Assembly: GCF_013408535.1 (NCBI RefSeq)
Contig: NZ_JACBZA010000001.1
Coordinates: forward strand, 5,230,850-5,294,849
Direction: 5' to 3'
DNA from: Actinopolymorpha cephalotaxi
GTDB lineage: Bacteria > Actinomycetota > Actinomycetes > Propionibacteriales > Actinopolymorphaceae
Length of the DNA stretch: 64,000 nt
Shown: positions 22,769 through 33,514 of the stretch, one piece after another
Position numbering within the stretch: position 1 is the stretch's first letter
Layout: every line of letters begins with the position of its first letter
The notes under the pieces: model-generated
Told to the model about the DNA's origin: nothing
What the model saw: the letters and a program-made list of their open reading frames with translations, nothing else
The model's database searches: none
Program-made: the position numbers and the translations under genes

Positions 22769-24333
22769 GCGGGGGCCGGCGGGCCGCCGTCGTCCGCTCC
22801 TCCGCGCTGCTCGTCGGGCTCACCGCAATCAGCCAGGTGCTCGGCTTCGCCCGGGACGCGGTGATGGCCGCGGTGTTCGGTGCGGACGCCGCCGTGGACG
22901 CGTTCCTCGTCTCCCAGGGCGTGATGAACGTCGTTCTCGGGCTGGTCTCCGGCGCGATGGCCAGGTCGCTGGTGCCGCCGGTGGCGCGGGCGGTCGAGGA
23001 GAACCGCCCGAAGGAAGGGCAACGCACTGTCCAGGTCACGTTGACAGTGACGATGGCAGTCCTGCTGGTTGCGTCCGCGGTGATGTTCGTCCTCGCCGAT
23101 CAGGTGGTCGACGTCCTCGCGCCGGGCTTCGACCCGCACACCGAGGCGCTGGCAGTGACGATGACCCGCATCGTCCTCGTCGCGACGGTGTTCGTCTCCG
23201 GCACGAACCTCCTGGCCGGCGCCGCGCAGGCACACGGCCGGTTCTTCTGGGCCGGTGTGCAGGGGGTGCCGTTCAACCTGGTGATGATCGGCGCGATGGT
23301 CGCCTTCGGCGGGAAGTTCGGCGTGGCCGCGCTGGCCGGTGGTTTCGTCGTCGGGTCGGCCGCCCGGTTCGCCGCCCAGCTGCCAGCGGTGCGCGGCATC
23401 GGCCTGCGGCTGCGGCCCTCGCTGCGCGTCCGCGATCCCGGCTTCCGGGAGATGATGCGGATGGTGCCGCCGCTGCTGGTGGGCAGCGCCATCGTCAACG
23501 TCAACACCACGGTCGACCGCGCGGTCGGCTCGGCCCAGGGCGCCGGCACGATCGCCTCCCTCAGCTACGGCTGGCGGGTGGTCACGCTGGCCGAGGTCGT
23601 GCTGGTAACGGCGTTCGCGACCGCGTTGTTCCCCGCGTTCAGCGCCCTCGGCCGGCCCGAGCGCCGGGGCGAGCTCCGGCGCGCGACCGGACGGGTTCTC
23701 GGCGTGGTGCTGGTGGTGATCACCCCGGTGGTGGTGGTGCTCGCGGTGGCGGCCAGGCCGATCGTCGTGCTGCTGTTCGCCCGCGGCAGCTTCGACGAGC
23801 GGGCCGTCCACCTGACCACGCTGGCGGTGTCCACGTACGCACTGGCGCTGCTCGGCCTCGCGGTGCGCGAGGTGGTGGCCAGGGCGAGCCTCGCGGTCGG
23901 CGACAGTCGCGCGCCGGTGCTCACCGCGCTGGGCGCGATGGGCGTGAACGTGGTGGGCGACCTGACCCTCGGTGTGCGGTACGGCGTGACCGGACTCGCT
24001 GCCTCCACGTCGATGTCGGTACTGCTGGCCGCGACCGTGCTCAGCGTGCTGACCGCCCGGCGCCACCGGGCCCTCGCGCTGGCGCCGGTGGCACGCACCG
24101 TCCTCGCGGTCGGGGTGGCCGCGGCCGCGTCGGCGGCGGCGGGCTTCGCGGTGTCGCGCCGGCTGCCGGTCGAGGGCGCCCGGCACGCACTGGTGTCCCT
24201 GGCGGTGACCGGCGCCTGTTGCCTGCTGACGTACGCCGTGGTGCTCGTCCTCACCCGGGTGCCCGCCCTGGCCGACCTGCGCGCGGCCGCGCGGGACCTG
24301 ACCAGCGGGCGCCCACGCCGGGACCCGACCTAG
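22765..24333 (+). CDS. MurJ/MviN-like lipid II flippase, probable CTG start
   Basis: A polytopic membrane protein of about 522 residues with some 13-14 helices and MurJ-like elements such as VLGFARDAVMAAVFGADAAVDAF and FPAFSALGR. It may flip lipid-linked sugars, as MurJ does for lipid II in wall synthesis. The first conventional start is GTG 22837, but the frame upstream encodes RRAAVVRSSALLVGLTAISQ, the expected first helix. The only start-like codon there is CTG 22765, which overlaps the kinase TGA in a CTGA quartet with GGGTGA just upstream. Start confidence is moderate; the family call is strong. Confidence 0.8.
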   Translation: MSGGRRAAVVRSSALLVGLTAISQVLGFARDAVMAAVFGADAAVDAFLVSQGVMNVVLGLVSGAMARSLVPPVARAVEENRPKEGQRTVQVTLTVTMAVLLVASAVMFVLADQVVDVLAPGFDPHTEALAVTMTRIVLVATVFVSGTNLLAGAAQAHGRFFWAGVQGVPFNLVMIGAMVAFGGKFGVAALAGGFVVGSAARFAAQLPAVRGIGLRLRPSLRVRDPGFREMMRMVPPLLVGSAIVNVNTTVDRAVGSAQGAGTIASLSYGWRVVTLAEVVLVTAFATALFPAFSALGRPERRGELRRATGRVLGVVLVVITPVVVVLAVAARPIVVLLFARGSFDERAVHLTTLAVSTYALALLGLAVREVVARASLAVGDSRAPVLTALGAMGVNVVGDLTLGVRYGVTGLAASTSMSVLLAATVLSVLTARRHRALALAPVARTVLAVGVAAAASAAAGFAVSRRLPVEGARHALVSLAVTGACCLLTYAVVLVLTRVPALADLRAAARDLTSGRPRRDPT

Positions 24334-24572: not shown

Positions 24573-25610
24573 ATGTCCGACAGACCGGACGGCCCGTACG
24601 GCCCGCATGGCCCGCATGGCCCGCATGGCCCGCATGGCCCGCGTGGCATGGACGGGCCGGCGACGGCCCGGTTCGGGGCCGGCGGGACCGATGGTGTCGG
24701 CGGTGCCGAGGATCCGTGGGCGAAGGCGGCGGCGGAGAACTTCCCGGTGACCCTGCGGGTGGTGCCCGTACGCATTCGGCAGGACCTGGAAGCGGTCTAC
24801 CGCTACGCCCGGCACGTCGAGGAGATCGGAAACACCGAGAACACCGAAGGCACCGGAACCGCCGGGAACACCGAGGACACCGGGGACGGGGCACCCGCCG
24901 ACCGGTCGGCCGTACTCGACCGGCTGGCCGGCATCGACGCGGACATCCGCGCGCTCTACCACGGCGGCCCGGTGAACGACCCGGTCGTCGCCGACCTCGC
25001 CTCGCTGGTGGCCAGGCAGCGGGTGCCGGCCGACCCGCTGCTGCGGCTGATCGAGGCCGGCCGGCGCGACCAGCGGGTCCGCCGGTACGACACGTTCGCG
25101 GAGTTGCTCGACCACTGCCACTACTCCGCGGACCCCGTGGGCGAGCTCGTCCTGCTCGTCTTCGGCCGCGCGACCGCCGAACGCGTCCGCCGCTCGAACC
25201 AGATCTGTACGGCACTCCAACTGCTGGCGCACTGGCAGGACGTGGGCGAGGACTACCGCCGGGACCGGATCTACCTGCCGCGGGAGGACCTGCGCGCGTT
25301 CTCCGTCGGCGAGGAGGACCTCGGCCGGCCCCGGGCGAGCGAGGCGCTGCGGGCGCTGATCGCGTTCGAGACGGCCCGGGCGCAGAAGCTCCTCGAGGCG
25401 GGCGCGCAGGTGCTGGGCACGCTGTCGGGCTGGGCGCGGGTGAGCGTCGCGGGCTCCGTCGCCGGCGGGCGGGCCACCTGCTCGGCGCTCCGCCGCGCCG
25501 GCTACGACCCGCTGCGCCGGGTGCCGCGGCCCACCTCACCGGTGATCGCCGGAGCCTGGCTGCGGAGCATGCTCGGTTCCCGGCGTACTCCGGCGGGTGG
25601 CCGGGGATGA
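24573..25610 (+). CDS. hpnC: Squalene synthase HpnC (hydroxysqualene-forming)
   Basis: A protein of 345 residues of the squalene/phytoene synthase family. In the HpnCDE route, HpnC turns presqualene diphosphate into hydroxysqualene. The second acidic motif QDVGEDYRRDRIYLP is intact. The first reads YARHVEEIGN, with Glu in place of the usual Asp pair. Low-complexity inserts occur: GPHGPHGPHG near the N-terminus and NTENTEGTGTAGNTEDTGD after the first motif. The ATG has GAGGAG upstream. First gene of a seven-gene hopanoid operon. The Glu substitution may alter metal binding, so HpnC is assigned by position and homology together. Confidence 0.88.
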   Translation: MSDRPDGPYGPHGPHGPHGPHGPRGMDGPATARFGAGGTDGVGGAEDPWAKAAAENFPVTLRVVPVRIRQDLEAVYRYARHVEEIGNTENTEGTGTAGNTEDTGDGAPADRSAVLDRLAGIDADIRALYHGGPVNDPVVADLASLVARQRVPADPLLRLIEAGRRDQRVRRYDTFAELLDHCHYSADPVGELVLLVFGRATAERVRRSNQICTALQLLAHWQDVGEDYRRDRIYLPREDLRAFSVGEEDLGRPRASEALRALIAFETARAQKLLEAGAQVLGTLSGWARVSVAGSVAGGRATCSALRRAGYDPLRRVPRPTSPVIAGAWLRSMLGSRRTPAGGRG

Positions 25611-25617
25611 GAGGGAG

Positions 25618-26616
25618 ATGAACGTCGATCAGGCCTACCGCGCGTGTGCGGCGATCACCCGCCGGGAGGCGCGGAACTTCTCCTACGGCATCGCGCTGCT
25701 CCCCGGGCCGAAACGGCGCGCCCTGTCCGCGGTGTGCGCCATGGCGCGCCGCGTCGACGACATCGGCGACGCCGACCTGCCGGTGGCCGAGAAGCTGCGC
25801 CGGCTGGCGGTGGTGCGCAACCAGGCCGAACGCCTGCTGGCCGGCCCGCCGCCCGCGCCCCCCGATCCGGCCGACCCCGCCGACCCGGCCGCGTCCGACC
25901 CGGTGGTGGTCGCGCTGGCCGACGCGGCGCGGCGGTTCCCGATCCGGCTGGACGCCCTCCTGGAACTCCTCGACGGATGCGAGGCCGACGTCCGGGGCAT
26001 GCGCTACAAGACGTTCGAGGACCTGGTGGGCTACTGCCGCCAGGTCGGTGGCTCGGTGGGCCGGCTGTCGCTCGGGGTGTTCGGCCCGCGGTCCTACGCC
26101 GAGGCCGAGCCGCTGGCGGACACCCTCGGCGTCGCTGTGCAGCTCACCTGCATCCTGCGCGACCTGTACGACGACCGGCTGCGCGGCCGGATCTACCTCC
26201 CGGCCACCGACCTGGACGACTACGCCTGCACCCTCGAGCTACGCGAGCTCCGCGAACTCCGCGAGGGCCACGAGCCCCGCGACGGCCGCGACCCCCTCGG
26301 CCCCATCGACCCGCGCGAGCCCCGCGACCCGCGCGAGAGCGCCGCCGAGGAGGGCCTGATCGACCCGGACAGCTTCGCCGACCTGGTGCGGTTCGAGGCG
26401 AACCGCACGCGGGCGTGGTACGTGCGCGGACTCACCCTGCTCCCGTTGCTGGACCGCCGCAGCCGGTCGTGCACGGCGGCGATCGCCGGCGTCCACCTGC
26501 GGCTGCTGGACCGGATCAGCGCCGACCCCGACCTGATTCGCGACCAGCGCCTGGAGTCGCCGGGCAGGGCGAAGTTCGCGGCGGCGGCGCGGGCGCTGGC
26601 CCGAGGTGAGGCATGA
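25618..26616 (+). CDS. hpnD: Presqualene diphosphate synthase HpnD
   Basis: A squalene/phytoene synthase family protein of 332 residues that joins two farnesyl diphosphates into presqualene diphosphate. Motif 1 is ARRVDDIGDAD and motif 2 CILRDLYDDRLRGRIYLP, both intact. A charged insert (ELRELRELREGHEPRDGRD, then PREPRDPRES) lies after motif 2. ATG 25618 starts right after the hpnC stop, with GAGAGGGAG abutting it; an in-frame GTG at 25597 overlapping hpnC is an alternative. It overlaps hpnE by four bases. Confidence 0.9.
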   Translation: MNVDQAYRACAAITRREARNFSYGIALLPGPKRRALSAVCAMARRVDDIGDADLPVAEKLRRLAVVRNQAERLLAGPPPAPPDPADPADPAASDPVVVALADAARRFPIRLDALLELLDGCEADVRGMRYKTFEDLVGYCRQVGGSVGRLSLGVFGPRSYAEAEPLADTLGVAVQLTCILRDLYDDRLRGRIYLPATDLDDYACTLELRELRELREGHEPRDGRDPLGPIDPREPRDPRESAAEEGLIDPDSFADLVRFEANRTRAWYVRGLTLLPLLDRRSRSCTAAIAGVHLRLLDRISADPDLIRDQRLESPGRAKFAAAARALARGEA

Positions 26617-28028
26617 CGTCGGTCGCGGTCGTCGGCGGCGGCCTGGCGGGGATCGCGGCCGCTGTCCGGCTGGCGGACCGGGGTGCCCGGGTGACCCTGC
26701 TGGAGGCGCGCACGCACCTGGGCGGTGCGACGTACTCCCTGGACCGGCCTGCCGTCTCCGGCCGGTCCGGCCTGGTCGCCGACACCGGCCAGCACGTGTT
26801 CCTGCGGTGCTACCACGCCTACCGCGCCCTGCTGGAACGCCTCGACGTGGCAGCACTCGCACCGGTCCAGGACCATCTGGCGATCCCGGTGCTGCGGCCG
26901 GACGGGCGTTCGGGCGAGCACGCGGACCAGCCGGCCTGGATCTACCGCACCCGGCGCGGACCGGCGCCGCTGCACCTGGCCCGATCGCTGGCGGCGTACA
27001 GGCCGCTGACCCCGCTGGAACGGCTTCGCGCCGGCGCGGCCGCGTTCGCGCTGCGCCGGGTCGACCCGGACGACCCGCGCAGGGACACCTCGACGTTCGG
27101 CGAGTGGCTGCGCGAACGCCGGCAGTCCGGGCGGGCGATCGAGCGCCTGTGGGGCCTGATCGCGGTCGCCGCGCTGAACCTCCCGCCCGACGAGGCGTCC
27201 CTCGCGCTGGCCGCCAAGGTGTTCCGCACCGCGTTCCTCGACCGGCCCGAGGCCGCCGACCTCGGCGTGCCCGCGGTGTCGCTGCGGCAGTTGCACGCCC
27301 AGCCCGCGGCCCGGCTGCTGGAACGCCTCGGTGTCGACGTCCGCACGAACGTGCGGGTGCTGGCCGTCGAACCACTCGCCGATCCGGGCGCCGGCGCCGA
27401 GCGGTTCGTCCTGCGTACCCGTACCGACGAACTCACCGCGGACGCGGTCGTGGTGGCGGTCCCCCACCAGTCCGCCGCCCGGCTGGTGCCGGCTCGCGCG
27501 GTGCCCGACGAGGCACGGGAACGCTGGGCCCGGCTGGGGTCGGCGCCCATCGTCAACGTCCACCTGCGCTACGACCGGCGGGTGACGGCGTTCCCGTACG
27601 CCGGTGCGCTCGACTCCCCCGTGCAGTGGATCTTCGACCGGACCCGGGCCGCGGGCGTGGACCGCGGCCAGTACCTCGTGGTGTCGGTGTCGGCCGCGCA
27701 CGCCGAGGTCGGCACGACCACCGAGGAACTCCGCCGTACGTACGCCAACGCGGTGGACGACCTGCTGCCCGGCGCCCGCACCGCCCGGGTGGTCGAGTCG
27801 TTCGTCACCCGCGAACCCCACGCGACGTTCCGCCAGGGCCCCGGCACGGCGGCGTTGCGCCCACCCACCCACACCGGACTGCCCGGGCTCACCCTCGCCG
27901 GCGCGTGGACCGCCACCGGGTGGCCGGACACCATGGAGGGCGCGGTACGCAGCGGCCTGCGGGCGGCGGACGCGCTCTCCCTCACCAGGACCCCGACGTC
28001 GCGCCCCCTTGGAGAGGCCCTGCCATGA
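26613..28028 (+). CDS. hpnE: Hydroxysqualene dehydroxylase HpnE
   Basis: An FAD-dependent amine oxidase/desaturase-like enzyme of 471 residues that reduces hydroxysqualene to squalene in the HpnCDE route. The N-terminal dinucleotide fold is VAVVGGGLAGIAAAVRLADRG with VTLLEARTHLGG. A PNTWP-like C-terminal FAD region appears as LTLAGAWTATGWPDTMEGAVRSG. The ATG overlaps the hpnD stop (ATGA), and its own stop overlaps the next ATG the same way. Length is normal for HpnE. Confidence 0.93.
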   Translation: MTSVAVVGGGLAGIAAAVRLADRGARVTLLEARTHLGGATYSLDRPAVSGRSGLVADTGQHVFLRCYHAYRALLERLDVAALAPVQDHLAIPVLRPDGRSGEHADQPAWIYRTRRGPAPLHLARSLAAYRPLTPLERLRAGAAAFALRRVDPDDPRRDTSTFGEWLRERRQSGRAIERLWGLIAVAALNLPPDEASLALAAKVFRTAFLDRPEAADLGVPAVSLRQLHAQPAARLLERLGVDVRTNVRVLAVEPLADPGAGAERFVLRTRTDELTADAVVVAVPHQSAARLVPARAVPDEARERWARLGSAPIVNVHLRYDRRVTAFPYAGALDSPVQWIFDRTRAAGVDRGQYLVVSVSAAHAEVGTTTEELRRTYANAVDDLLPGARTARVVESFVTREPHATFRQGPGTAALRPPTHTGLPGLTLAGAWTATGWPDTMEGAVRSGLRAADALSLTRTPTSRPLGEALP

Positions 28029-29050
28029 CGCTGCTCCCCACCGAACGCCGCATCGCGGAGACCCACCGGATGGTCGAGCCGGCCCTGCTCGCCGCACTCG
28101 ATCGGCTGGACGCGGACACCCGGCGCGCCTGCGGCTACCACTTCGGCTTCTGGGACTCCGACGGCCAGTTCCCGGCCGAGCCCACAGCGCGCGGCAAGGG
28201 CCTGCGGCCGGTCCTCGCGGTGCTGTCGGCGCAGGCGGCGCAGGCACCGCCCGAGGCGGGCGTTCCGGCCGCGCTCGCCTGCGAGCTCGTGCACAACTTC
28301 TCGCTGTTGCACGACGACGTGATCGACGGCGACACCGAACGCCGGCACCGGCCGACGGTGTGGGCGCGGTTCGGCGTACCCGACGCGATCCTGGCCGGCG
28401 ACGCGCTGTTGTCCCTGGCCAACGAGGTGCTCGCCGAGGCCGACTCCGTCCACGTCCACGTGGCCGTACGCCGGCTGGGTGAGACCGTGCGGCAGCTGAT
28501 CGCGGGCCAGACCGCCGACATCGCGTTCGAGAAGCGCGACGACGTGACCCTCGCCGAGTGCACCAGCATGGCCGCGGACAAGACCGCCGCCCTGCTGGCG
28601 TGTTCGGCCTCGCTGGGTGCGGTGCTCGCGGGGGCGCCGGCCACCCTGCTGGCGGCGCTGACGACGTTCGGGCGGCACGTGGGCATGGCGTTCCAGCTCA
28701 CCGACGACCTGCTCGGCATCTGGGGCGACCCGGTGCGCACCGGCAAGCCGGTGCTGTCGGACCTGCGGGCGCGGAAGAAGTCCGTCCCGGTGGTCGCCGC
28801 GCTCACCGCCCCGACGATGGCGGCGGAGGAGTTGCGCGACCTCTACCGCCGGCCCGACCCGCTGGACGAGGCCGAGCTCGCCCGGGCCGCGTCTCTGGTC
28901 GAACAGGCCGGTGGCCGCGGCTGGACCGAGGACGAGGCGGACCGCCAGCTCGCGGCCGGGATCCGGGCACTGGGCACGGTCGACCTGCCGGACCCGGTGC
29001 GCGACGACCTGACCCGGGTCGCGGGTCAGCTGCGCGGACGGAGCGCCTGA
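28025..29050 (+). CDS. Polyprenyl diphosphate synthase (farnesyl/geranylgeranyl type)
   Basis: An all-helical trans-prenyltransferase of 341 residues that should make the C15 precursor for squalene. The first Asp-rich motif is LLHDDVIDGDTERRHRPTVW. The second reads FQLTDDLLGIWGD, a DDxxG variant common in actinobacterial members. GKGLRPVL supplies the IPP-binding Lys/Arg. Start ATG 28025 lies in the ATGA overlap with hpnE; the longer open frame would overlap hpnE completely. Chain length cannot be set from sequence, but position in the operon favours farnesyl diphosphate. Confidence 0.9.
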   Translation: MTLLPTERRIAETHRMVEPALLAALDRLDADTRRACGYHFGFWDSDGQFPAEPTARGKGLRPVLAVLSAQAAQAPPEAGVPAALACELVHNFSLLHDDVIDGDTERRHRPTVWARFGVPDAILAGDALLSLANEVLAEADSVHVHVAVRRLGETVRQLIAGQTADIAFEKRDDVTLAECTSMAADKTAALLACSASLGAVLAGAPATLLAALTTFGRHVGMAFQLTDDLLGIWGDPVRTGKPVLSDLRARKKSVPVVAALTAPTMAAEELRDLYRRPDPLDEAELARAASLVEQAGGRGWTEDEADRQLAAGIRALGTVDLPDPVRDDLTRVAGQLRGRSA

Positions 29051-30975
29051 TGGCCGGCCTGTCCGCGCGGTCGGTGCAACCGAACGCCGACGACGACGCG
29101 TCGGCGCACGCCGCGCTGGACCGTGCCGTCGAGCACCTGCTGGACCTGCAGGACCCGGCCGGCTGGTGGAAGGGCGAGCTGGAGACCAACGTCACGATGG
29201 ACGCCGAGGACCTGATGATGCGGCAGTTCCTCGGCGTCCGCACCGACGAGCAGACCGCGCAGTCGGCCACCTGGATCCGAAGCCAGCAACGCGACGACGG
29301 CTCGTGGGCGAACTTCCGGTTCGGGCCGGGCGACGTGTCCACGTCGGTGGAGGCCTACGTCGCGCTCCGGCTCGCCGGCGACGACGCCGACGACCAGCAC
29401 CTCAAGCAGGCCCGTCAATTCATCCTTGACAGCGGCGGGGTCGAGGCCACCCGGGTGTTCACCCGGATCTGGCTGTCGTTGTTCGGGCAGTGGAGCTGGG
29501 ACGACGTGCCCGCGCTGCCGCCGGAGATCGTGCTGGCGCCGGCCTGGGTGCCGTTCAACGTCTACGACTGGGGCTGCTGGGCCCGGCAGACTCTCGTACC
29601 CCTCACCATCCTCGGCGCGCTCCGGCCGAACCGCCCGCTCGGGGTGAGCGTCGACGAGCTCCGCACCGGTTCGCCGGCACCGCCACCGGCCCCGCCGACC
29701 ACGTGGCGGGGCGCGTTCACCCGGCTGGACCGGGCCCTGCACGCCTACGAACGCCGGCCGGTCCGGTCGGTGCGCAAGCTGGCCTTGCGCCGGGCCGCGG
29801 AGTGGGTCGTCGCCCGGCAGGAGAAGGACGGCTGCTGGGGCGGCATCCAGCCGCCGTGGGTCTACTCGCTGATGGCGCTGCACGCCATCGGCTACCCGCT
29901 GGACCACCCGGTGCTCGCGGCGGGCCTGGCCGGCTGGGAACGCTTCACCATCAGGGAGGAGACCCCGGACGGCACCGTACGCCGGATCGAGGCGTGCCAG
30001 TCGCCGGTCTGGGACACCGCACTCGCCCTGGTCGCGCTCGGCGACGCGGGCGTGGATCCCGAGGCCGGCCCGATGGTGCGGGCGCGCGACTGGCTGCTGG
30101 CGGAGGAGATCACCGTCCGCGGCGACTGGGCCGTACGGCGGCCGCACACTCCCGCCGGCGGGTGGGCGTTCGAGTTCGACAACGACGGCTACCCCGACAC
30201 CGACGACACCGCCGAGGTGGTGCTCGGCCTGCGCCGGACCGCCGAGTCGCCACAGGTGGAGGAGGCGGTACGCCGGGCCCGGATCTGGCTGCGCGGCATG
30301 CAGTGCCGGGACGGCGGCTGGGGCGCGTTCGACGCTGACAACACCCGCGAACTCGCCTACCAGTTGCCGTTCTGCGACTTCGGCGCGGTGATCGATCCGC
30401 CCAGCGCGGACGTCACCGCGCACGTGGTGGAGATGTTCGCCCACGAGGGGCACGCCGACGACCCGGAGGTGCAGCGCGCGGTGCGCTGGCTGCTGGACGC
30501 GCAGGAGAAGGACGGCTCGTGGTTCGGCCGGTGGGGCGCGAACCACGTGTACGGCACCGGCGCGGTCCTGCCCGCGCTGGTGGCTGCCGGCCTCTCCCGG
30601 CACGACCGGGCCGTCGTCCGCGGCGCGAACTGGCTGACCGCGCACCAGAACGCCGACGGCGGCTGGGGTGAGGACCTGCGTTCCTACACCGATCCCACCT
30701 GGGTGGGCAAGGGCACGTCGACGGCGTCGCAGACCGCGTGGGCGCTGCTCGCGCTGGAGGCGGCCGGGCTGAGCGGGTCCCCCGCCGTCCGCGCCGGGAT
30801 CGCCTGGCTGGTGGCCACCCAGCGCCCCGACGGCGGCTGGGACGAGCCGCAGTTCACCGGCACCGGATTCCCCGGCGACTTCTACATCAACTACCACCTC
30901 TACCGGCTGGTGTTCCCGGTCACCGCGCTCGGCCGGCTGCTCACCCCGGCAGGCGATGCGCAGGACCGGGCATGA
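29050..30975 (+). CDS. shc: Squalene-hopene cyclase
   Basis: Cyclises squalene to hopene/hopanol at the membrane. Its 641 residues are near the family norm of about 630. The catalytic acid motif is Asp383-Thr-Asp385-Asp386 in [10 protein letters not shown]. Many QW repeats are visible, for example [53 protein letters not shown] and [12 protein letters not shown] 29050 overlaps the preceding TGA by one base (TGATG). The next gene starts 11 bases after the shc stop, or overlaps it by four if its earlier ATG is used. Confidence 0.96.
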
Positions 30976-30986
30976 GGGGAGCTGCG

Positions 30987-32510
30987 ATGGCGGCCGAGTT
31001 CGCCCTGTGCGCGCCGACCCGGCTGGAGACGGCCGCGGTCCGGCGTGGCCTGCCCGCGGGAACCACCTCGGCCACGCTGCTGCGTACGGGCATGGGCCGC
31101 CGGCACGCCGAACGTGCGGCCCACCTGCTCGCGCACACCGGCCGGCCACCGAGCGGTGTGCTGGTGACCGGGGTGGCCGGCGCGCTCGACCCCGGCCTCG
31201 CACCGGGTGACGTGGTGGTGGCCACGGAGGTACGCGCCGGCGAGCGCGTCGTCGCCTGCCCGAGCGCACCGCTGCTGGCCGCCCGGCTGGCCCGGATCGG
31301 CCTGACGGTGCGCACCGGCCCGGTGGTGAGCCGGGACCACCTGGTCAGCGGCGCCGCGCGCACGCCCCTGCGCGACAGCGGCGCCCTCGCCGTCGACCTG
31401 GAGTCCGGCTGGCTCGCGGCCGGCCTGCCCGCCTCGACCGCGACCGCGTGCGTACGGGTGGTCGCCGACCCGGCCACCGGCGCGTTGTGGCGACCGGTCA
31501 CGCTGGCCCACCTGCGGACGGCGGCGCGCACGCTCACCACCGTCGCGCCCGCGCTGGCCGACTGGGGTGCGGCGACCGGGGCGCGGACCGTCCTGCTTCC
31601 CCACCCGCGGTCGTTCTGCGCCGGGGTGGAACGCGCCATCGACATCGTCGAGCGGGTCCTCGTCCAGCGCGGCGCCCCGGTCTACGTCCGCAAGCAGATC
31701 GTGCACAACTCCCACGTCGTGGCCCGGCTGGAAGGCCTCGGCGCGGTGTTCGTGGAGGAACTGGCCGAGGTGCCCGCGGGCGCCACCGTCGTCTTCTCCG
31801 CGCACGGTGTGTCCCCCGCGGTCCGGGACGAGGCCGCCGCCCGCGGTCTCGGCGTCGTGGACGCGACCTGCCCCCTGGTGGCGAAGGTGCACAGCGAGGC
31901 GCGCAGGTTCGCCGACCGCGGCGACACCGTGCTGTTCATCGGACACGACGGGCACGAGGAGACCCAGGGCACCGTGGGCGAGCGCCCGGGCAGCACGGTG
32001 CTGGTGGAGGACCTCGCCGGCGCCGCCCGCGTACGGGTGCCCGACCCCGGCCGGGTGTCCTACCTCGTGCAGACCACGCTCGGGGTGGAGGAGGTGGCCG
32101 AGATCGTCGGCGTCCTGCACGACCGCTTCCCCGCGCTGCAGGGTCCGGCGTCGGACGACATCTGCTACGCCACCACCAACCGCCAGCACGCCCTGCGGTC
32201 GGTGGCCCGGCAGGCCGATCTCGTCCTCGTGGTCGGCTCCCGGAACTCCTCCAACGCCAACCGGCTGGTCGAGCTCGCCCGCCGCCTGGGCACCCCGGCC
32301 CACCTGGTCGACGACCCCGGCGGCATCGACCTGGCCTGGCTACCCGACGCGGCCACGGTCGCGGTCACCGCGGGCGCCTCGACACCGGCGTCGCTGGTCG
32401 ACGCGACCGTCGACGCGCTGCGCGGCCTCGGCCCGGTGGACGTGCGCGAGCACGTGGCCACCACCGAGGACATCGAGTTCACCCTGCCGAAGGAGGTGCG
32501 CAACCCATGA
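30987..32510 (+). CDS. HpnG-IspH fusion: adenosylhopane nucleosidase plus HMBPP reductase
   Basis: A fused protein of 507 residues. Residues 1 to about 195 are a nucleoside phosphorylase-like domain ([36 protein letters not shown]) like HpnG, which removes adenine from adenosylhopane. Residues from about 200 are a full IspH, the iron-sulfur enzyme that makes IPP and DMAPP. All three cluster cysteines are present: Cys211 in FCAGVERAI, Cys295 in DATCPLV and Cys393 in [22 protein letters not shown] is also intact. There is no stop between the domains. ATG 30987 has GGGGAG upstream; ATG 30972, overlapping the shc stop, is possible. Overlaps hpnH by ATGA. Confidence 0.88.
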
Positions 32511-33514
32511 CCATGCCGATGCGGCAGAGCCTGCGAATCGGGCGGTACCTGCTGACCCAGCGACTGCGCGGCCGGGAGAAGTTTCCCCTGCTGGTCGAGC
32601 TCGAGCCGCTGTTCGCCTGCAACCTGCAGTGCGCGGGCTGCGGCAAGATCCAGCACCCGGCCGACGAGCTCCGCCGCCGGATGCCGGTCGAGCAGGCCGT
32701 GGCCGCGATGGAGGAGTGCGGCGCGCCGATGGTCTCCATCGCCGGCGGCGAACCCCTCATGCACCCCGAGATCGACCGGATGGTCGCCGAACTCGTGAGG
32801 CGGAAGATCTACGTCTTCCTGTGCACCAACGCGTTGCTGGTCCGCAAGTGGTGGGACCGCTTCGACTTCCAGCCCTCGCCCTACTTCGCGTTCGCGGTGC
32901 ACATCGACGGCCTGCGCGAACGCCACGACGCGTCGGTGGACCACGAGGGCGGCTTCGACGAGGCGGTCGCGGCGGTGAGGTTCCTGCAGGCACAGGGATT
33001 CCGGGTCACCACCAACACCACGTTCTTCACCAGCGACAGCCCGCAGAACGTGATCGACGTACTCGACTTCCTCAACGACGACCTGCACGTCGACCAGATG
33101 ATGGTGTCGCCGGCCTACGCCTACGAGAAGGCGCCCGACCAGGACCACTTCCTCGGCGTCACCCAGACCCGGGAGCTGTTCCGCAAGGCGTTCGCGAACG
33201 GCAACCGCGCGCGCTGGCGGCTCAACCACTCCCCGATGTTCCTCGACTTCCTCGAGGGCAAGGTGGACTTTCCCTGCACCGCCTGGGGAATTCCGTCGTA
33301 CTCGCTGTTCGGCTGGCAGCGGCCCTGCTACCTGATGAGCGACGGATACGCCTCGACGTACCAGGAACTGGTCGAGGAGACCGACTGGGACAGCTACGGA
33401 CGGGGCCGGGATCCGCGGTGCGCGAACTGCATGGCGCACTGTGGGTACGAACCGACGGCGGTGCTGGCCACGATGGGCTCACTGCGCCAGTCGTTGCGGG
33501 CCATCGCCGGTTGA
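32507..33514 (+). CDS. hpnH: Adenosyl-hopene transferase HpnH (radical SAM)
   Basis: A radical SAM enzyme of 335 residues that joins a 5'-deoxyadenosyl group to hopene, the first step of extended (C35) hopanoids. The 4Fe-4S motif is CNLQCAGC near residue 38. [14 protein letters not shown] and the C-terminal SPASM-like [12 protein letters not shown] agree with HpnH. The ATG overlaps the fusion gene stop. The TGA stop lies inside the first of four 14-base repeats. Last gene of the operon; its product is the substrate of the upstream HpnG domain. Confidence 0.94.

Follow-up and report, generated by a model that had tools for sequence, protein, structure and literature searches.

In the hopanoid operon of Actinopolymorpha cephalotaxi an HpnG-like nucleosidase and an HMBPP reductase of the IspH type are encoded by one gene, and this gene is a genuine fusion that places both domains in one chain. 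The fusion is common in actinomycetes, where HpnG occurs about as often or more often fused than alone in a sample drawn evenly from the class. We consider it likely that the product is one bifunctional polypeptide, combining the operon's HpnG-like step with an extra HMBPP reductase that would supply the hopanoid pathway and whose dose would be tied to the operon. Positions given without a contig or locus name refer to the window, i.e. the whole stretch of 64,000 nucleotides that was analysed.

A single frame within the hopanoid operon

The frame starts with an ATG at 30987, ends with a TGA at 32508-32510 and is open throughout its 507 amino acids. Together with the Pfam and NCBIfam matches this bears out an earlier note on this DNA, which had read an adenosylhopane nucleosidase-like domain and an entire HMBPP reductase from one uninterrupted frame inside the hopanoid operon. 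The Pfam family PNP_UDP_1 (PF01048) matches residues 27-166 with 43.4 bits (gathering threshold 25.1), and LYTB (PF02401) matches residues 202-478 with 289.8 bits (gathering threshold 24.5). In NCBIfam, the fusion reaches 285.4 bits with ispH_lytB TIGR00216 (cut-off 187.85) and falls below the cut-offs of the stricter IspH subgroup models NF002188-NF002190. The HpnG model TIGR03468 is the best nucleosidase-family model for the N-terminal domain, yet its 76.6 bits remain below the cut-off of 187.1, and we therefore refer to this domain as HpnG-like. Cysteines are found at positions 8, 91, 155, 211, 295 and 393 of the fusion protein, the last three being the cluster ligands of the IspH domain. 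The gene, its parts and its operon neighbours are located as follows:

24573..25610, + strand: hpnC (squalene synthase HpnC), first gene of the hopanoid operon; TIGR03464 255.6 bits, cut-off 250.45
25597..26616, + strand: hpnD-like gene (presqualene diphosphate synthase); TIGR03465 225.5 bits, under the cut-off of 278.6; position conserved
26613..28028, + strand: hpnE (hydroxysqualene dehydroxylase); TIGR03467 402.8 bits, cut-off 283.05
28025..29050, + strand: polyprenyl diphosphate synthase (PPS), its start overlapping the hpnE stop; NF041169 410.1 bits (cut-off 450), and matches to other prenyl synthase models
29050..30975, + strand: shc (squalene-hopene cyclase) with DTDD motif; TIGR01507 718.6 bits, cut-off 431.1
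30987..32510, + strand: HpnG-IspH fusion, single open frame of 507 amino acids; Pfam PNP_UDP_1 and LYTB, kept in relatives, AF2 model
30987..31574, + strand: HpnG-like nucleosidase domain, residues 1-196, with invariant E14, D137, E139, R157 and D161
31560..31619, + strand: domain joint, about residues 192-211, from the end of helix 171-196 to the first IspH strand
31584..32507, + strand: IspH domain, residues 200-507, with cluster cysteines 211, 295 and 393
32507..33514, + strand: hpnH (adenosyl-hopene transferase, radical SAM); TIGR03470 509.3 bits, cut-off 225.05

The order hpnC-D-E-PPS-shc-[G-H]-hpnH is constant among the fusion loci compared. The HpnG-like domain has a hopanoid context, as its gene adjoins shc and hpnH: the ATG of the fusion is located 11 bases 3' of the shc stop (30975), and its stop codon and the start of hpnH share the ATGA at 32507-32510. 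Reading of the sequence alone also places a MurJ/MviN-type lipid flippase-like frame just upstream of hpnC (about 22837-24333, + strand), a possible neighbour of the operon.

The HpnG-like and IspH domains are joined without a flexible linker. In the AlphaFold2 model, which is confident and comprises two domains (pLDDT 92.4, pTM 0.89), a long helix formed by residues 171-196 runs directly into the first IspH strand. In 24 of 25 homologues, C211 follows the invariant W193 at a distance of 18 residues. The protein is thus of the "Rosetta stone" kind, with IspH and a second domain in a single uninterrupted chain. We also considered that the apparent fusion might be an assembly artefact (a frameshift or an overlooked stop codon), or that an internal start might yield two products. 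Nothing in favour of either was found, and the identical in-frame joint recurs in independent genomes. The same in-frame fusion is found in 6/6 genomes of the genus, the five relatives being 70-93% identical to the window protein (93% for Actinopolymorpha rutila, the closest named relative), and it recurs in many actinomycete genera, which contradicts the frameshift that the earlier note had named as grounds for giving up its claim. Against a split product, the joint of the window gene contains no in-frame ATG, GTG or TTG, such codons are not conserved at the joint of the homologues, and no conserved internal start codon was found in the fused genes among the homologues compared. Conservation and the lack of a conserved internal start rule out a frameshift or split product, and we give virtually no credence to an artefact.

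Distribution and active sites of the fused protein

The spread of the fusion was determined in an even sample of 297 genomes of the class, using as query residues 1-222, which include only 23 IspH residues. HpnG is fused in 39 of the 69 HpnG-bearing genomes, while 30 match the HpnG part only; in one further genome the HpnG match is cut by a contig end. The fusion is also present in 4 genomes of another class of the same phylum, with other operon genes adjoining. Most of the best 80 loci from a species-wide genome scan carry both domains in one frame, but these loci were picked by similarity and the even class sample is the fairer count. The mapping of taxonomic spread that the earlier note had proposed therefore leads to many actinomycete genera and families and to a second class. 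Its view of HpnG and IspH as normally separate is correct for Streptomyces-like clusters, where a standalone hpnG occupies the same operon position, and fails for actinomycetes at large, given the numbers of fused, contig-cut and standalone genes above.

In the IspH domain, the residues equivalent to C12, H41, H74, C96, H124, E126, T167, C197, S225, N227 and S269 (E. coli numbering) are kept in 58/58 fused proteins. The equivalents of C12, C96 and C197 are the cluster cysteines 211, 295 and 393, exactly as the earlier note had assigned them. Housekeeping IspH copies have cluster and substrate residues identical to those of fused IspH. Fold comparison superimposes the IspH domain (span 200-505) on E. 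coli IspH with a Z score of 40.7 and an rmsd of 1.4 over 306 residues, and aligns the HpnG-like domain with MTAN over residues 1-196 (Z 24). On the nucleosidase side, fused HpnG and the standalone HpnGs compared have E14, D137, E139, R157 and D161 without exception. In an alignment with MTA/SAH nucleosidases, E139 pairs with the catalytic Glu (of VEMEA) and D161 with the catalytic Asp (of RAISD). HpnG is held to strip adenine off adenosylhopane, giving ribosylhopane (PMC12583986). Foldseek ranks PDB 9ql0, E. coli IspH crystallised with adenosine present, first among the matches to the fusion model, and the adenosine is curious next to a domain expected to release adenine.

The additional ispH and the possible role of the fusion

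The earlier note had suggested looking for a second ispH, and an ordinary copy indeed lies elsewhere in the genome, at C1:620594-621529, with 56% identity to the fused IspH domain. The genome searched is a single 6.86-Mb contig, in which dxs and ispG each gave one match over cut-off; the fusion gene is its one HpnG-like hopanoid gene, and no second hpnG was found. Among 40 genomes, all 26 that carry the fusion have exactly two ispH genes and all 14 with a standalone hpnG have exactly one, where 10 of the 14 unfused genomes belong to one Streptomyces-like, genus-like group (named by inference) and the counts are not independent events. Because of these gene counts we assign the fused IspH, as an additional copy, to the hopanoid operon.

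In the IspH tree the fused proteins group with the IspHs of encapsulin operons (see below) in a single clade, and the housekeeping copies fall into another (100/100). Given this separation and a mean identity of 56%, we rejected a recent duplication of the genome's own ispH as the source of the fused copy. E. coli is the only outgroup in this tree, and its IspH is 51% identical to the fused and 52% identical to the housekeeping proteins. The HpnG tree is weak on whether standalone HpnG is ancestral or reflects secondary loss of IspH. In one Streptomyces-like hopanoid cluster (L151:8684-11812), ispG and dxs frames were identified after hpnH by reading the sequence. It seems that the hopanoid operon has gained different MEP genes in different actinomycetes.

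IspG and IspH are hard steps in terpenoid engineering, and the operon described here would be a natural lipid operon that has an IspH to itself, in covalent linkage with an enzyme of the pathway. We propose that the N-terminal domain serves as the operon's only HpnG-like nucleosidase, which would take the adenosylhopane produced by HpnH and release its adenine, leaving ribosylhopane. The C-terminal domain would be a working extra [4Fe-4S] HMBPP reductase beside the housekeeping ispH, providing IPP/DMAPP for the operon's prenyl synthase, squalene and cyclase genes, and the fusion together with the operon overlap would couple the dose of the spare IspH to hopanoid synthesis. What we infer from the sequences is that both domains are enzymatically active, that the fused IspH supplies the pathway, and that co-dosage explains why the fusion exists. 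An IspH dose that follows hopanoid demand, as the earlier note had envisaged, would fit the ispH counts. Extra IspH alone need not raise the flux if Dxs or IspG is limiting, and the fusion provides an easy way of testing whether hopanoid synthesis is limited by precursor supply. Channelling between the domains is unlikely, given the distance of their reactions within the pathway.

The same distance between the catalysed steps would also suit a neutral accident of operon evolution, in which the domains work side by side with no functional link. Rare IspH fusions have been described as possibly random by Rao et al. 2015 (PMC4746011), and the hopanoid operon also occurs in genomes without fused IspH. 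Nevertheless, the fusion is kept over many families and two classes with both sites intact and the joint fixed, and the extra IspH tracks the fusion exactly; a neutral origin therefore appears rather unlikely to us. Far less probable, and in our view hardly to be expected, is an altered function of the IspH domain as the missing reductase that converts ribosylhopane to bacteriohopanetetrol, acting on the product of HpnG. The ribosylhopane reductase is still unassigned (PMC12583986), and the fusion does join a reductase domain to a ribosylhopane-making enzyme. This role is disfavoured, however, because the unfused, Streptomyces-like hpnG genomes manage without any second IspH and because fused IspH has all HMBPP-binding and cluster residues as in housekeeping IspH. 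Moreover, IspHs of the same clade are present in encapsulin operons that have neither shc nor hpnH. We thus favour the bifunctional polypeptide with an HMBPP reductase that would feed the hopanoid pathway.

Related IspH fusions and the encapsulin operons

A "UDP-IspH" protein (UDP/PNP phosphorylase plus IspH) was reported by Rao et al. 2015 in Frankia sp. QA3, EUN1f and EAN1pec and grouped among single-species fusions that could be random (PMC4746011). The words "hopanoid" and "nucleosidase" are absent from the text of that paper. UDP-IspH has the same two domains, and the Frankia homologues found here are nucleosidase-first and also lie in a hopanoid operon. In contrast to the Frankia-only protein of 2015, which carried no link to HpnG or hopanoids, the fusion described here spans many families and two classes, so that a Frankia fusion once deemed possibly random proves to be widespread and conserved in the hopanoid operons of actinomycetes. 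A paper naming an HpnG-IspH fusion was not found among the open-licence PMC literature. IspH-RPS1 (NF000907) and IspH-UbiA likewise combine IspH and a second functional protein in one chain, but they have other partners and occur mainly in anaerobes (Clostridium, Fusobacterium) and sulfate reducers (PMC4746011). The Streptomyces-like clusters (L150-L153, L159) share the operon order and the invariant HpnG residues, whereas their hpnG has no attached IspH and their genomes have one ispH each. In hopanoid clusters of Acidobacteria, ispH is grouped with shc and hpnH but is separate and unfused (PMC5462960).

The closest group to fused IspH, with a mean identity of 64%, consists of the IspHs encoded in family 2B encapsulin operons. 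These operons comprise shell genes and a prenyl transferase, without shc or hpnH, and the nucleosidase part is degenerate or lost. In Prauserella flavalba (L070:3761-8978), two family 2B encapsulin genes are found with an N-terminally extended IspH and a polyprenyl transferase that scores above the cut-off of the encapsulin-cargo model. Using an HMM of the fused HpnG domains, we detected an HpnG remnant in 16 of 24 encapsulin-operon IspHs tested, with E values of 2e-9 to 4e-4 compared to 0.2 for the best of 480 shuffles. The loci with a remnant are L067-L069, L070, L071, L073, L075, L079, L082-L085, L087, L089, L093 and L099, and the encapsulin pair was detected in most of them, the exceptions being L079, L082 and L087. 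The remnant match spans about profile positions 60-109, and the catalytic part is gone; in L074, L086, L091 and L092 the N-terminal extension is absent altogether. Unlike family 2B encapsulin operons, the fusion locus has no shell gene nearby: the search for an encapsulin gene gave no significant match in the window and none over cut-off in the genome.

Since a partial, dead HpnG precedes their IspH, the encapsulin-operon IspHs probably descend from a full HpnG-IspH fusion. This claim leans on the remnant more than on the tree because support for the sister relationship of the fused and encapsulin IspH groups is near 80 or lower. It points to a shared origin of the IspH genes found in encapsulin terpenoid operons. 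More tentatively, we can imagine a single origin of the fusion in the hopanoid operons of actinomycetes and its later copying into family 2B encapsulin operons, where the nucleosidase died and the HpnG remnant was retained for a different task, e.g. docking to the shell or the prenyl transferase; this sequence of events is possible, although we would not expect it to be the true one. Sequence comparison suggests that hopanoid and encapsulin operons share more than IspH. The hopanoid PPS of the window (28025-29050) is itself near the encapsulin-cargo polyprenyl transferase family (410 of 450 bits with NF041169). In a relative from the same genus, a broken ispH-like piece with a stop is present as two fragments (G004:C1:3475995-3476397).
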